Of a stretch of 53,500 nt of DNA, positions 33,812 to 40,563 are shown piece by piece; the stretch's first letter is position 1; every line of letters begins with the position of its first letter. The notes beneath the pieces are model-generated. The model saw only the letters and a list, made by a program, of their open reading frames with translations, was not told the origin of the DNA and did not search any database. This DNA is from Ignavibacteriota bacterium. Lineage in GTDB: Bacteria; Bacteroidota; Ignavibacteria; UBA10030; UBA6906. The stretch lies in the NCBI GenBank assembly GCA_003162635.1, contig PMNE01000043.1, positions 38,192 to 91,691 on the forward strand, read 5' to 3'. Position numbers and translations under genes: made by a program.

Positions 33812-33842
33812 CGAGGGCTCCGTTCCCGGAGGAGTGGACATC

Positions 33843-36800
33843 GTGAGGAAGTTTCGCATCATTGCGCTGTACCTGCTGGTCGGCCTGCCGCTGTTTGTCC
33901 TCCTTCTCAGCGCGTTTACTCAAACACGCATCTTCCGCGAGCGCATCCGTGCGCTTGCCCTCAACGAACTGGATTCCTTGCTCAATGCGGATGTTCAGCT
34001 CGGGGAGCTCCGGGGCGATCTCCTTACAGGGTTCTCGGTTGACAGCATCCGCGTTGACGTTGACGGCAAACCGTTGCTCCGCCTCGATCGCCTCGAAGTC
34101 TCGTACAACCTTCTTCTTCTTCCGCGAAGGATCGTCGGGATACGCTCCGTCACGCTTGTGCGTCCACGTGTCTTTCTCTTCCGCCCCAGGGGAGGCGAAT
34201 GGAACTTTGTGCACATGCTCAAGCCGGATACCTCCCAGCGGGGGCCATCGTCCTGGACCGTCCGTCTCCGGCAGGTCGAGATCCGCAACGGCACCGTCTC
34301 CCTCTGCGATTCCACGGCCCTGACACGCCCCGACCATGACCCGCCGGACGGGCGTACAGTGGAGTATCATGCGTTCACTCTCCACGATCTCACCATCGCC
34401 ATGTCGGCCGAGATCCAGTCCGAGATGAAGCGCGTCACCATCCAATCCTGCTCGTTCATCGCCGACTCGCCGGACATCCAGCTCAAACGGTTCTCGGGGA
34501 TGTTCGCGCTCTCTCCCGGTGAAGTCCGGGTCGACAGTCTCCGGCTCACGACGGCAAGGTCGGACCTCGCAATCAGCGCTTCGATGGAAGATGTGGATCT
34601 TGCCAAAGGGATCGATCTTCTCTCGCTCCGAGCCGTTCCAACAGAGCTCTCTCTGCGGGCAAACCCAATCGACCTGGACGAGCTGAAAGAATTTCTCCCG
34701 CCGCTCCATTTCCTTACGGGGAAGCTTACACTCGATCTCCGGGCCGACGGACATTTCGGCGATCTGATCCTGCCGCGCGCCGATCTGCACTTTGGTTCGT
34801 CCTCCCTCTTTCTCAGGGGGAGGGTTATCAATCTGCACGATCCGAAGGACCTGACGCTGAGCGTGAAGGTGACCGAAAGTACTGTCGTGCCCGCAGACAT
34901 TCCCGCCCTGATGCCGCCGCTTAACCTTCCGGACATGAGTTCCGTGGGGACGGCAACGCTCAACCTCGAATTTGACGGTAGACCCGCTGACTTTCAGACG
35001 AAGTTTCTTCTTGAAACCCCGGCGGGGAGCATACAGTCGTCGGGATTGTCTCTGATCATCGGCGGGCCGTCGCGACTTGCGTACGGCGGGGACATTCTCT
35101 TCAGCGGCATCGATTGCAGCCGCATCCTGGACGACCCCAGGATGACCAGCAATCTGAACGGGATGGCGAAGATCAAGGGAAAAGGGATACGCCTCCACCA
35201 GCTCGCATCATCCCTGGTGCTGTCAATCGATTCTTCCTCCTTCCGCGGTCTCCCGCTCAATCAGACCCGTCTGACGATCGAGGCCTCCCAAAGGTCGGTC
35301 ACAGGGAACGCCACGGTGGCGCTCGGCGACATGCACGCCCGTCTCCAGGCGCGGCTGACGGAGCCGGAGAATGCTCCCCCCGAGTTCCATGTGGACGGAG
35401 ACGTCACCTCGCTCAACCTCGAGGATGTTTTGCATGACTCGACGTACAATAGTGACATCACGATGAAGTTGAACGTTGACGGGACCGGTCTGACGTGGAA
35501 CACGTTGAGCGGCACGATGGCCTTCGATCTCACAACGTCGCGGTACCGCGACTACACCGTGACGCAGGGTGACTTCCATCTGGCAATCGACCAGAGTGAT
35601 TCATTGCACAAGAAGCTCCAGTTCGAATCCAATATTGCCGACCTGACCGTGACGGGGGCGTTCGACCTCGACTATCTTGCCCGCCTGGTACCGTTCGAGG
35701 TGGGCAACCTCCGTGCGGCTCTCGTCGAGAAACTGTCGGTCATCGATTCCTCCTTCGCACACAGCATCGACCGGAAAGCGCTCCTCGCCGCAGAACAGTC
35801 GCTTGCCGCAACGCCGCGACACATCGATGCCCACTATGTTCTCCACGTCAAGAACCTGGAGCCGCTCTCCGTGGCGGCTGGCAAAGAGACATTCAACGGC
35901 TCGGGGGTGCTGAGCGGTGTGCTGAAGGGTTCCTCCGAAAATCTCGCGATGAACGCCGACCTGTCGGTGAACGACTTCTTCTACGGCAATGCCGACTCGG
36001 GAATCCTCGTGGAAAACGGCAAAGTGTCACTGGACATGCAGGCCCTGAAGCCGGCGGCCCCGCTCCGGAGTCTGGTGCTTCGCCTCGAAACTCATGCCGA
36101 CAAGATGCTTGTCGATCGGAGGGAGTTCGACACTCTTGCGGCCAAACTGGAATACCACAACGAGACGGCGGTGTCGGAAGCCGGTCTGACCTACGGCAAA
36201 GACGTTCGCCTGCACGGGAGCGGCGTGGCTCGCGTGACGGAAAACAGCGTTGCCGCGGATGTTCGCACTCTTGATGTCGGCTACCGTGATTTCCTTTGGC
36301 ACGCAGACAGCGGGGCGAGCGTGAAGATCAACCAGGTCAGCGCAGAGTTGTCAGGCCTCGTCATGCGCCGCGATACCCAGACTGTTGCCGTGCGCGGGAT
36401 GATCGGAAAGGGGCGGTCCCTGAGCGGGACAGTTAGCGGGACTCATCTCGATCTCGATGACCTGAAGTACCTTCTCCGTGAGGAGGAGTTGGGAACTCAG
36501 GGAAAGGCCTTCGCCGGCGCGGCGGACATCGACGTGGGCGTCTCCGGCACGCTCATGGATCCCCGCTTCACGGCAACGCTGATTGCCGACAGCGTTTCAT
36601 TCCGCACTCTCCCGTTCGGCCGGATCGACGGCACTTTCCTTTACCGCGACCGGCAGATCACCTCTCATGTGGAAGTCCGTGCTGCAAAAGCTCCTCCCGC
36701 ATCCGAACCGATCATGTCCGTCTACGGCACGCTTCCCGTCGATCTGCGTCTGGCGGAGACGGATGTTCCGCTGCCGGAACAACCGATGAATCTCAAGATT

Positions 36801-38384
36801 GTGTCGCGAGGGGTGCAGATGAATATCCTCGATCCCCTTCTCCCGACGTTCAACGAATTGCGCGGCATCATGGAATGCGACCTCACCCTTGCGGGGACGG
36901 CGGGCAATCCCACCTACGATGGGCACATCACCATCAAGGATTGCTCGTTCCTGTTCGTCCCCAATAACATCTCCTATACGATGGAAGCGACGATGCGTCC
37001 GGCGGGAGACCGCATCAGGGTCGACGACTGCGTCATCAGGAATCTCCCAGAGGACAGGCATTCCGGGCAGGATGGGATGATCCGGGTTGGCGGAGACTTC
37101 GCACTGCACGGATTCAGGCCGGGCGATTTCAATCTCACGGCAGCGGGACAGCTCCTGGTCGTGAAGGAAACCACGCGCAAGTCTTCGCTTGAGGTGTACG
37201 GGGATCTCTTTGTGGAAATAGGCCAGCCCCCGCTTCGGTTCACCGGGGAAGTCGACAATTCCCTCCTGAAGGGATCCCTGCTCATCCGCAACTCAACGCT
37301 GATCTTTCCCCCGACGAAGTCGGAAGTCGCCGATGAATCAGCGAGCTCGGTTCCCGTCGTTTTCGTTGACGATACGACGAGCGTTGCCAGCTCGCGCCAA
37401 CGGAGTCTCGTCGCCCGGTATTTTGAAGAGTCGCGGAGCATGCACGACGCCGCCGGAGACAGCACGGAACTTCATGCCTCAAAGTCATTCATGGACGGAC
37501 TCCACTATGACCTCGACATCGAGACAAGCGGCGGCAATACGGAGATCCGCATGATCTTCAATCCAGCTACGAGCGAGGAGCTCGTTGCGACGCTGGACGG
37601 CCGGTTCAATATTGCGGAGGATGGGAAGCGGTGGACGGGCGACCTGACAATCAGCAGGGCGTACTACAATTTTATCAAGAGGTTTGATGCGACGGGCTCG
37701 ATCAGGTATGCGGGAGATTTTCTGGACCCGGAATTAAACATCAGTGCGACGTACAAAGGAACCCGGACCATTGCCGATACGACAAGCGGTTCCCGCGTGG
37801 AACAGATCGTCGTCACCGCAAAGATCACCGGGTCACGCCAGTCGCCAAAGGTCGAATTTTCCATGACCATCGACGATGTCGACTATGCGCAGTATGCGCT
37901 GCGGAACCGATCGACATCGAACGACGTGCAGTCGGATGCCATCCAGTTCATTCTGGCCGGGACATTTCCCCTGACCACGTCGCAAAAGAACGACCTGGCG
38001 ACGGAGATGCGCCAAACCGCCAGTCTCTCCCTGCTGACCGGCGCCACATCGCTTCTGACCGGCGCGTTTTCGGATTTCATTCATACGCAGACGGGACTCC
38101 CGATCACCGTTGAACTGAGTTACGGAAACAAGGAATCGACCGAACTGCGGCTCAGCGGGACGGCCTTGAGCGGGTACTGGCGGTACGGCGGCACCATCCT
38201 GAACGATCCGCTCAGCAATGCGAACCTCAGCATTCTGTATTCCTTGGGTACGATTTTCAGCAACCCCTCGCTTCGCAACCTCATGTTCGAGCTCGAGCGG
38301 AAGACCGAGCCTGGGATCACCGGGCTCACCAACGACATCAAGCGCGTCAATTCGGCGCGCCTCTTCTACCGTTTTTCTTTCTGA
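33843..38384 (+). CDS. tamB: Translocation and assembly module / AsmA-like protein TamB
   Basis: A very large (1513 residues) inner-membrane-anchored, periplasm-spanning protein of the AsmA-like bridge family, thought to carry phospholipids to, or aid insertion of proteins into, the outer membrane. One N-terminal helix (IIALYLLVGLPLFVLLLSAF) is followed by an AsmA-like N-terminal region and over a thousand residues of repeating amphipathic beta strands. The C-terminal TamB (DUF490) domain covers the last 400 or so, ending in an aromatic-rich strand (ARLFYRFSF). I prefer the GTG at 33843, 10 nt after GGAGG, over the GTG at 33834, which touches the ribosome site. rnr follows 22 nt downstream. 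Confidence 0.93.
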   Translation: MRKFRIIALYLLVGLPLFVLLLSAFTQTRIFRERIRALALNELDSLLNADVQLGELRGDLLTGFSVDSIRVDVDGKPLLRLDRLEVSYNLLLLPRRIVGIRSVTLVRPRVFLFRPRGGEWNFVHMLKPDTSQRGPSSWTVRLRQVEIRNGTVSLCDSTALTRPDHDPPDGRTVEYHAFTLHDLTIAMSAEIQSEMKRVTIQSCSFIADSPDIQLKRFSGMFALSPGEVRVDSLRLTTARSDLAISASMEDVDLAKGIDLLSLRAVPTELSLRANPIDLDELKEFLPPLHFLTGKLTLDLRADGHFGDLILPRADLHFGSSSLFLRGRVINLHDPKDLTLSVKVTESTVVPADIPALMPPLNLPDMSSVGTATLNLEFDGRPADFQTKFLLETPAGSIQSSGLSLIIGGPSRLAYGGDILFSGIDCSRILDDPRMTSNLNGMAKIKGKGIRLHQLASSLVLSIDSSSFRGLPLNQTRLTIEASQRSVTGNATVALGDMHARLQARLTEPENAPPEFHVDGDVTSLNLEDVLHDSTYNSDITMKLNVDGTGLTWNTLSGTMAFDLTTSRYRDYTVTQGDFHLAIDQSDSLHKKLQFESNIADLTVTGAFDLDYLARLVPFEVGNLRAALVEKLSVIDSSFAHSIDRKALLAAEQSLAATPRHIDAHYVLHVKNLEPLSVAAGKETFNGSGVLSGVLKGSSENLAMNADLSVNDFFYGNADSGILVENGKVSLDMQALKPAAPLRSLVLRLETHADKMLVDRREFDTLAAKLEYHNETAVSEAGLTYGKDVRLHGSGVARVTENSVAADVRTLDVGYRDFLWHADSGASVKINQVSAELSGLVMRRDTQTVAVRGMIGKGRSLSGTVSGTHLDLDDLKYLLREEELGTQGKAFAGAADIDVGVSGTLMDPRFTATLIADSVSFRTLPFGRIDGTFLYRDRQITSHVEVRAAKAPPASEPIMSVYGTLPVDLRLAETDVPLPEQPMNLKIVSRGVQMNILDPLLPTFNELRGIMECDLTLAGTAGNPTYDGHITIKDCSFLFVPNNISYTMEATMRPAGDRIRVDDCVIRNLPEDRHSGQDGMIRVGGDFALHGFRPGDFNLTAAGQLLVVKETTRKSSLEVYGDLFVEIGQPPLRFTGEVDNSLLKGSLLIRNSTLIFPPTKSEVADESASSVPVVFVDDTTSVASSRQRSLVARYFEESRSMHDAAGDSTELHASKSFMDGLHYDLDIETSGGNTEIRMIFNPATSEELVATLDGRFNIAEDGKRWTGDLTISRAYYNFIKRFDATGSIRYAGDFLDPELNISATYKGTRTIADTTSGSRVEQIVVTAKITGSRQSPKVEFSMTIDDVDYAQYALRNRSTSNDVQSDAIQFILAGTFPLTTSQKNDLATEMRQTASLSLLTGATSLLTGAFSDFIHTQTGLPITVELSYGNKESTELRLSGTALSGYWRYGGTILNDPLSNANLSILYSLGTIFSNPSLRNLMFELERKTEPGITGLTNDIKRVNSARLFYRFSF

Positions 38385-38406
38385 CACCATCTGCCGGGAG
38401 GCATCG

Positions 38407-40563
38407 ATCGCCACTCTCAAGCAACGAGCTCTGACCTATCTGACGGCGCATGTGCGGAACGCATCGACCGTCAAAGAGATAGCCCGCCACCTCCGCGTGA
38501 AGGGGAAGGAGGAGTACGATGCTCTCCGCATGCTCCTGGAGGACATGGAGCGCAAGGGGACCCTCGAGGCGGACGACCAGGGGAAACTCAGGATTGCACG
38601 GAATCGTCCGGCGGCGAAAGGGAAAGCAGTCGGACCGCAACGCATCGTCGGCACGCTCACGCTGACGCGGAAAGGCGCCGGGTTCGTTGCAGTGGAGGGA
38701 AGCGATGAAGAAATCTACATTCCCCCCCGTTTCGTCCATACCGCTTTTCCAGGCGATACCGTGGAGGTGGTCCCGTTTGCCCCTTCCCGCGGACGGAGAC
38801 GGCCGGACGATCACCGCGAGGGAGACATCGTCAGGATCGTCGAAAGGAAGGTGATCACGGTGACCGGACGCCTGGAAGCGACACGGACATCGCTGTTTGT
38901 GGTTCCTGATGACGAGCGCATCCCGCGAGACGTGGCTGTGTCACGCGATGACACCAAAGGAGCGAAGCCCGGTGACAAGGTCGTCGTCCGGCTGCACGAA
39001 TGGACGGACGAACATCTCAGCCCGGAGGGTGAGATCGTGGAAGTCCTCGGTTCTGCGGGTGACGCCCGCGTCGAGGTGCTCAGCGTTGCGAGAAATTTCG
39101 GATTGCCGGCAAATTTTCCGCCGGAAGTGGAAAGGGAGGCGTCGGCGCTGCGCGGGACGATCAGTCTCGACGACCTTGCAGGCCGCGTGGATTACCGCCG
39201 GCGGATGGTGGTGACGATCGACCCGGAAGATGCACGGGATTTCGACGATGCGCTGTCGCTCGAACGCATCGACAACGACACGATGCGCTTGGGGGTTCAC
39301 ATCGCCGACGTGAGTCATTATGTCCGTGAGGGGACGTCACTGGACCAGGAGGCCTTCTCCCGAGGGACGAGCGTGTACCTTGTCAACGAGGTGATCCCGA
39401 TGCTTCCGGAACGCCTCTCGAACGACCTGTGCAGCCTGCGACCGGATGTCGATAGACTGACCTACAGCGTCTTCATGGACGTGAATGCCAATGGCGTCGT
39501 GGCGTCCCACAGGATCGCCAAAAGCGTCATCCATAGCGCCCGCAGATTCACGTATGAAGAGGTGCAGAAGATCATTGAAGCGCGTGCCGGCGAATGTGCG
39601 GACCTTCTCCTCCCGCTTCACGCCCTTGCGAAGGTCCTGCTGAAACGGCGCCGCAAGAACGGAAGTCTCGACTTCGATACGGGAGAGGCGAAATTCACGT
39701 TCGATGCAGAGGGGCTGCCGGCGCAAATCATCAAGAAGACACGCCTCGATGCGCACCGGCTTGTCGAGGAATGCATGCTGCTGGCCAACCAGACGGTGGC
39801 CCGTCACGTCGGCGCGGTGCGCCGGGAGGAAGAAGTGAAGCCGTTCCTCTATCGGGTGCACGATCTCCCCGATCCCGTCAAGCTGCGGGAACTCGCGACG
39901 TTCGTCCATCAGTTCGGTCTCTCCCTCGATGCAAAGAACGGAGTCTCTTCCCACGAACTGCAGAAATTGCTTGACCAGGCGGAGGGGACGGAAGTGGAGA
40001 ACATCATCAACGATGTTGCTCTCCGTTCGATGGCGAAAGCGGTCTATTCGCCGAAGAACATTGGGCATTACGGATTGGCGTTTACGCATTACGCCCACTT
40101 TACGTCGCCGATCCGGCGCTATCCCGACCTCGTCGTCCATCGCCTGCTCAGCGAATATGCTGCAGGCGTCGACCAGCGGCGGATCGAGGAGATCCGGGCC
40201 CGCTTGCCGGAAATCGCGCGCCAGTCGTCCGCGCGGGAACGGCTGGCCGTTGGAGCGGAGCGAGAGTCCGTGAAGGTGATGCAGGTCGAGTACATGAAGC
40301 GTCACGTGGGAGACCATCTGTCAGGCGTCATCACCGGCGTCACCAATTTTGGACTGTTCGTCGAGATCAACGACCTTTTGGTGGAAGGACTCGTTCCTGT
40401 CCGCGAGCTCACCGACGATTACTATCTCTTTGATGAGAAGAAATACTCCCTCCGCGGCCGTTCGACGGGGAAGACCTATCGGCTGGGGGATTCCGTCAAG
40501 GTCCAGGTCGTTGCGGTGCATCCGGACAGGCGGACCATCGACTTTGCCGTCGTGGAATCCTGA
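38407..40563 (+). CDS. rnr: Ribonuclease R
   Basis: 3'-5' exoribonuclease that degrades structured RNA. In order: winged-helix N-terminal domain (residues 1-65, VKEIARHLRVKGKEEYDALR), two cold-shock domains, and the RNB catalytic domain with its Asp cluster (TIDPEDARDFDDALSLE). Then come HYGLAFTHYAHFTSPIRRYPDL and a C-terminal S1 domain (SGVITGVTNFGLFVEINDLLVEGLV). The start is unusual. There is no ATG, GTG or TTG in frame between 38218, deep inside tamB, and a GTG at 38452 that would cut the winged helix. An in-frame ATC at 38407 lies 5 nt after GGGAGG exactly at the domain start; I use it (718 aa). A conservative call would be 38452. Confidence 0.93.
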   Translation: MATLKQRALTYLTAHVRNASTVKEIARHLRVKGKEEYDALRMLLEDMERKGTLEADDQGKLRIARNRPAAKGKAVGPQRIVGTLTLTRKGAGFVAVEGSDEEIYIPPRFVHTAFPGDTVEVVPFAPSRGRRRPDDHREGDIVRIVERKVITVTGRLEATRTSLFVVPDDERIPRDVAVSRDDTKGAKPGDKVVVRLHEWTDEHLSPEGEIVEVLGSAGDARVEVLSVARNFGLPANFPPEVEREASALRGTISLDDLAGRVDYRRRMVVTIDPEDARDFDDALSLERIDNDTMRLGVHIADVSHYVREGTSLDQEAFSRGTSVYLVNEVIPMLPERLSNDLCSLRPDVDRLTYSVFMDVNANGVVASHRIAKSVIHSARRFTYEEVQKIIEARAGECADLLLPLHALAKVLLKRRRKNGSLDFDTGEAKFTFDAEGLPAQIIKKTRLDAHRLVEECMLLANQTVARHVGAVRREEEVKPFLYRVHDLPDPVKLRELATFVHQFGLSLDAKNGVSSHELQKLLDQAEGTEVENIINDVALRSMAKAVYSPKNIGHYGLAFTHYAHFTSPIRRYPDLVVHRLLSEYAAGVDQRRIEEIRARLPEIARQSSARERLAVGAERESVKVMQVEYMKRHVGDHLSGVITGVTNFGLFVEINDLLVEGLVPVRELTDDYYLFDEKKYSLRGRSTGKTYRLGDSVKVQVVAVHPDRRTIDFAVVES

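Follow-up and report, generated by a model that had tools for sequence, protein, structure and literature searches.

A conserved and probably weak AUC start codon in the RNase R gene of an Ignavibacteriota bacterium and its relatives

Gene layout at the locus

The window, i.e., the whole stretch of DNA that was analyzed (53,500 nucleotides from the genome of an Ignavibacteriota bacterium, hereafter G000), contains a tamB-like gene followed on the same strand by rnr, the gene of RNase R (Table 1). The name tamB is the label of the earlier note. Already well within tamB the RNase R frame is open, and it continues to position 40563. Its product matched the TIGR02063 model with 770.5 bits (cut-off 597.85) over model positions 3-711 of 711. 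Pfam matches above cut-offs were obtained for RNB, CSD2, OB_RNB and S1 (PF00773, PF17876, PF08206, PF00575). This full-length TIGR02063 match together with the RNB catalytic, cold-shock and S1 domains identified the protein as RNase R.

Table 1. Features at the junction of the tamB-like gene and rnr (positions of the window).
Feature	Position	Strand	Basis or remark
tamB-like gene	33834..38384	+	ORF list; C-terminus ...ARLFYRFSF* resembles that of relatives
ATG within tamB, nearest canonical codon upstream	38218..38220	+	rejected as start
tamB-like stop TGA	38382-38384	+	22 nt upstream of ATC
Shine-Dalgarno (SD) GGGAGG	38396..38401	+	sequence; duplex energy -10.3 kcal/mol
rnr, RNase R	38407..40563, stop included	+	718 aa counted from ATC; TIGR02063
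ATC, putative RNase R start codon	38407..38409	+	column comparison across 93 genomes
GTG, first canonical codon downstream	38452..38454	+	rejected as start

The earlier note had drawn attention to two features of this junction, and both were confirmed on the sequence. The RNase R frame contains no ATG, GTG or TTG between position 38218, which lies 167 nt inside tamB, and position 38452, and GGGAGG precedes the ATC at 38407 by a spacer of 5 nt (CATCG). The TIGR02063 match begins at model position 3, which corresponds to the third codon after ATC. Thus, the N-terminus of the RNase R family falls at the ATC codon.

Codon at the start column in related genomes

RNase R was searched for in 100 genomes, including G000 (the order comprises 98 genomes), and 97 of them gave a match, the others being G006, G067 and G070. 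We left out G010, G065 and G079, where the match lacked the N-terminus, and G061, where the N-terminus was uncovered, so that 93 genomes were aligned. A genome was said to have no nearby canonical start when no ATG, GTG or TTG occurred from 14 codons before to 2 codons after the column of position 38407. The RNase R of G014 (L020 / L170, C106:25794-27913) gave two separate matches, the N-terminal one with a reported in-frame TGA, suggesting a frameshift or an assembly fault. Also, one in-frame TAG was reported in the frame of G099 (C8:24990-27089; N-terminal part in L176).

Twenty-four of the 93 genomes had no nearby canonical start, and all of them carried ATC (23 genomes) or ATT (G001) exactly at the column. 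The 69 genomes with a nearby canonical start showed many kinds of codons at the same place, with ATC or ATT in 5 of them (24/24 vs. 5/69; Fisher 1e-17, kinship ignored). Isoleucine is thus not generally conserved at this place of the protein, and is present where it is needed as start. The 24 genomes belong to two families, namely f1, the window's own family (13 of 19 genomes), and f6 (11 of 31); the remaining relatives, 6/19 in f1 and 20/31 in f6, have canonical starts. The same distribution was found within f1 (13/13 vs. 0/6; Fisher 4e-5) and within f6 (11/11 vs. 3/20; Fisher 4e-6), kinship being ignored in both cases. A non-NTG codon is therefore kept across species in 24/24 genomes devoid of a nearby canonical start, as expected of a conserved non-canonical start, and the proposal of AUC initiation made in the earlier note is supported. 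ATC represents 440 of the 691 isoleucine codons counted in these RNase R genes; as it is the commonest of them, the predominance of ATC over ATT at the column counts only mildly as evidence. In genus g6 (four species), 10 sites vary within the first 20 codons counted from ATC, and 8 of these are third positions. Two genomes of f6, G096 (L030) and G035 (L172), keep ATC at the column despite an ATG 7 or 5 codons upstream.

The closest relatives that carry a name are MAGs with the labels Ignavibacteriae, Ignavibacteriales or Bacteroidetes. Among the 67 named loci that were aligned, a canonical codon is present at the column or close to it in those labelled Melioribacter/Melioribacteraceae, Kryptonium, Balneolaceae, KSB1 and Bacteroidales, and ATG stands exactly there in L074, L085, L087, L088 and L093. 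ATC stands there in L033-L039, L042/L043, L051, L055 and L056, but these loci are the named counterparts of genomes included in the count above and add nothing to it.

Canonical codons also occupy the very same column in some of the 93 genomes (ATG in G016 and G049, GTG in G019, TTG in G011). The earlier note had considered that an ATG at the aligned position in relatives would speak against an AUC start. Such ATGs do occur, yet ATC is kept in many other genomes, which indicates an exchange of start codons at one site and not an error in the window. The history of this exchange was followed on a FastTree tree of 71 RNase R proteins from which the start region was omitted; this quickly built tree left 22 forks open. 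The ATC/ATT state was represented in it by 18 rows, as six of the 24 genomes lacked a full-length sequence. The state required 5 changes, at least 4 of them being forced by starred branches, and each may be a gain or a loss. In view of these changes and of the canonical starts of the other f1 and f6 relatives, the weak start is not indispensable.

Ribosome-binding site

An SD match of at least 4 bases with a spacing of 4-8 nt was found in 24/24 genomes with the ATC/ATT start, and it reached at least 5 bases in 16 of them. For internal ATC/ATT codons of the same genes (available parts), an SD match at the start spacing was found in 144 of 608 cases. The median energy of the duplex with the anti-SD was -7.75 kcal/mol for the 24 weak starts vs. 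-1.5 for the 69 canonical starts, the codon scored in the latter being ATG by preference, then the nearest one, when several were near. Within families, the weak and canonical starts gave -7.4 vs. -5.5 in f1 (p 0.013) and -8.4 vs. -5.7 in f6 (p 0.0007), with kinship ignored in both comparisons. In f1, fair SDs (-4.3 to -8.3) are also found ahead of the six genes with a canonical start. The genes of f3 and f5 start with ATG, except for one GTG, and have almost no SD (median 0.4). For example, the RNase R ATG of L131 (G027, f3) and of L147 (G051, f5) lies directly at the end of tamB with almost no SD. The duplex energies thus indicate that a strong SD accompanies the weak start, and its strength and spacing are those of conserved non-canonical starts.

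Start codon of infC and initiator tRNA

The gene of IF3, infC, has an AUU or AUC start and is autoregulated by IF3. It was examined in 34 genomes (20 fetched, and 14 of 30 loci), a match to infC having been obtained in 90 of the 98 genomes of the order. An ATT or ATC was found 7 or 8 codons ahead of the IF3_N domain in 34/34 genomes, mostly behind SDs of the GGAG type. In G000, infC is located outside the window (C43:2717, L318) and its ATT start stands behind GTAGGAGGCAGATCC. The parallel with infC drawn in the earlier note is therefore apt, with ATT in the window's own genome and ATT/ATC in the 33 relatives examined. Given this constancy across 34 genomes, IF3-discriminated initiation is probably present in the lineage. 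The infC genes of G015, G009 and G025 have a GTG 7 codons after the ATT/ATC. In G083 (C118:12152-12355, L182), an ATG stands two codons before the conserved ATC, a possible escape from the Ile-type start.

We also considered a changed initiator tRNA. Among 36 pattern matches in G000, one site had the classic form, and ARAGORN assigned it to tRNA-Met with the anticodon CAU; the idea of a changed initiator was rejected. No tRNA was found at the four other pattern sites that were tried (5 of the 36 sites examined in all).

Other non-canonical starts in the genome

A scan of 1.12 Mb of G000 (36%, 703 genes), in which candidate starts were scored by coding potential and SD with a difference of 3 as pass mark, returned 20 non-canonical-start candidates. 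The positive control infC, with its ATT behind AGGAGG, ranked second and rnr third. In an earlier and smaller scan (874 kb, 473 genes), where infC was too short to score, rnr ranked first. Within G000, to which the scan was applied, three candidates beyond infC and rnr were inspected by translation. The top-ranked one, C4:28872, has GTC and a coding score of 37 and resembles a shadow frame. For C4:57350 (ATC behind AGGAGG), a membrane-fusion-like protein, the charged N-terminus upstream favours an ATG located 33 codons before. The third, at position 2294 of L328 (C53, - strand), is a 389-residue glycosyltransferase-like frame with AGGAGGT 4 nt before a CTG; its first ATG comes three codons on without SD, and CTG is a possible start, ATG being the more likely one. 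For PNPase, a poly(A)-polymerase-like protein and RNase Y, a canonical codon stands close to the N-terminus. From the scan and from these three RNA-decay genes, Ile-type starts look rare in G000. This genome may have non-canonical starts beyond those of infC and rnr.

Proposed mechanism

On the basis of the alignments, RNase R almost certainly starts at the conserved AUC codon. The strong SD would position the 30S subunit at this codon. The ordinary initiator tRNA (CAU) would then pair with AUC despite a mismatched third base, and the protein would start with fMet. Such a weak start would keep RNase R synthesis well under the level of an AUG, and by analogy with other systems a low output owing to the AUC codon is very probable. 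Also, as IF3 rejects mismatched starts, RNase R output would go up if IF3 were scarce or proofreading relaxed. Since AUC would be read by the ordinary initiator tRNA with a mismatch of the kind rejected by IF3, restraint by IF3 appears probable, although this analogy makes sensitivity to IF3 only somewhat favoured. Considered as a whole, a conserved and deliberately weak AUC start, with a strong SD, read by the initiator tRNA and restrained by IF3, is in our opinion a likely account of the data.

RNase R is a 3'-5' exonuclease which clears defective rRNA and stalled mRNA elsewhere. More speculatively, infC and rnr may form a small set of genes read by IF3 and released together when there is too little IF3 for the 30S subunits, an idea which we regard as rather doubtful. 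If true, RNase R would be raised exactly when initiation is error-prone, and RNA quality control would have its sensor in the proofreading of start codons. The putative AUC start concerns a central enzyme of RNA decay and is conserved in two families of the same order. It provides a concrete candidate for a connection between the fidelity of initiation and RNA turnover, and it would escape gene finders restricted to ATG, GTG and TTG. The site also offers, for comparison, a natural set of replacements, in either direction, between ATC and a canonical codon (ATG, GTG or TTG).

Alternative explanations

The AUC codon could cut RNase R output by a constant factor with variations of IF3 being immaterial, thus acting as a volume knob and not as a sensor. 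A strong SD combined with a weak start is what such a set-point requires, and in the available text of PMC9410913 pcnB, another RNA-decay gene, is described as limited by its AUU start. Nothing in our data stands against this possibility, which differs from the IF3-sensing one only in physiology; it is a serious competitor, to which we give a little less than an even chance.

Ribosomes finishing tamB might also restart at the AUC under relaxed rules, in which case the weak codon would matter little. In G000, the four g6 genomes, G012, G008 and G018, 12-22 nt indeed separate the tamB-like stop from ATC. However, the gap is 41-54 nt in G015, G009, G001 and G003. A tamB-like tail was recognized in 7 of the 11 f6 genomes, where the gap is 36-122 nt, and ATC/ATT and the SD are still kept in both groups (the tail was not recognized in G004 and in four f6 genomes). 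Reinitiation is therefore an improbable explanation.

A start elsewhere in the frame, at the ATG of 38218, the GTG of 38452 or another near-cognate codon upstream, is very unlikely. The ATG and the GTG are both in frame, but neither is kept, and the SD spacing suits ATC. Six of the 24 genomes (G018, G020, G005, G013, G017, G088) have an in-frame stop 5 codons upstream of ATC, and their next canonical codon comes 18 to 108 codons into the gene. The ATG was rejected because ATC scores higher in the coding-potential scan and because, in the four g6 relatives, whose identity is about 69-70%, a stop closes the frame 5 codons ahead of ATC. The GTG was rejected because it has no SD and because its position is not kept, the first downstream canonical codon lying 7 to 108 codons in across the 24 genomes. 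The earlier note had argued that a start at this GTG would remove half of a winged-helix domain. Such a start would indeed lose 15 N-terminal residues, but the domain argument was overstated, as no winged-helix domain was reported in RNase R by Pfam at E 0.001. A TTG occurs soon downstream in three genomes (7 codons in G001 and G009, 11 codons in G003). Four of the 24 have a canonical codon farther upstream in an open frame (ATG at -63 in G000, ATG at -30 in G004, GTG at -37 in G093, TTG at -16 in G001).

Finally, a sequencing or assembly error at 38409 hiding a true ATG, for which one could invoke that one base change would give a perfect SD-ATG, is as good as ruled out by the ATC/ATT of 23 other genomes at the same column, some of whose named counterparts (L033-L039, L042, L051, L055, L056) come from several projects.

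Comparison with known systems

In the literature that we searched (open-licence PMC papers), no AUC start was described for RNase R, and few conserved non-canonical starts are well supported in genes other than infC. AUC was used in a GFP reporter in PMC8299109, the available part of which mentions RNase R in a reference only. In that work, GFP expression from AUC in an Escherichia coli suppressor strain was above wild type, which was not so for AUA, GUG and UUG, according to the same part. In a Bacillus subtilis rny reporter, an AUC start accompanied much lower expression (PMC10303841, available text). As indicated in the accessible portion of PMC10158994, the share of full-length product from an AUU/CAU mismatch drops in a reconstituted system as IF3 rises.

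The infC gene resembles the RNase R gene by its Ile-type start behind a strong SD, which occurs in G000 itself (ATT). However, the product of infC is IF3, which closes its own loop, and RNase R is not IF3.

Streptomyces sigR has a conserved GTC start with a very extensive SD and is repressed by IF3; replacing GTC by ATG, GTG or TTG overproduces SigR, and IF3 mutants also raise SigR (Feeney, 2017; PMC5472188, excerpts). As described there, sigR shares with the RNase R gene a conserved non-canonical start outside infC and an extensive SD. It differs by its codon, by encoding a sigma factor and by the start-codon and IF3 effects that were shown for it.

In Staphylococcus aureus, cvfC1 (AUU) and ccpN (AUA) have conserved weak starts with extended SDs that were mapped by ribosome profiling, and reporters reached about 10% of AUG in poor medium and, in the case of ccpN, as much as 30% when the medium was rich (PMC13009471, available sections). 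As far as these sections describe them, they resemble the RNase R gene by a conserved non-canonical start and a strong SD, but they are other genes of another phylum and were mapped by ribosome profiling.

The pcnB gene of E. coli is translationally limited by its AUU start (Binns and Masters, 2002, cited in PMC9410913, partial text). From this description, it shares with the RNase R gene a role in RNA decay and an Ile-type start, which would limit RNase R as well, but it has AUU and encodes poly(A) polymerase, which is unrelated to RNase R.

It is by analogy with these systems that RNase R should be held low and should respond to how strictly initiation is controlled, in the first place by IF3. 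Conserved weak starts of this kind are thus already known for other genes, and the new feature reported here is a non-canonical start in the gene of RNase R.
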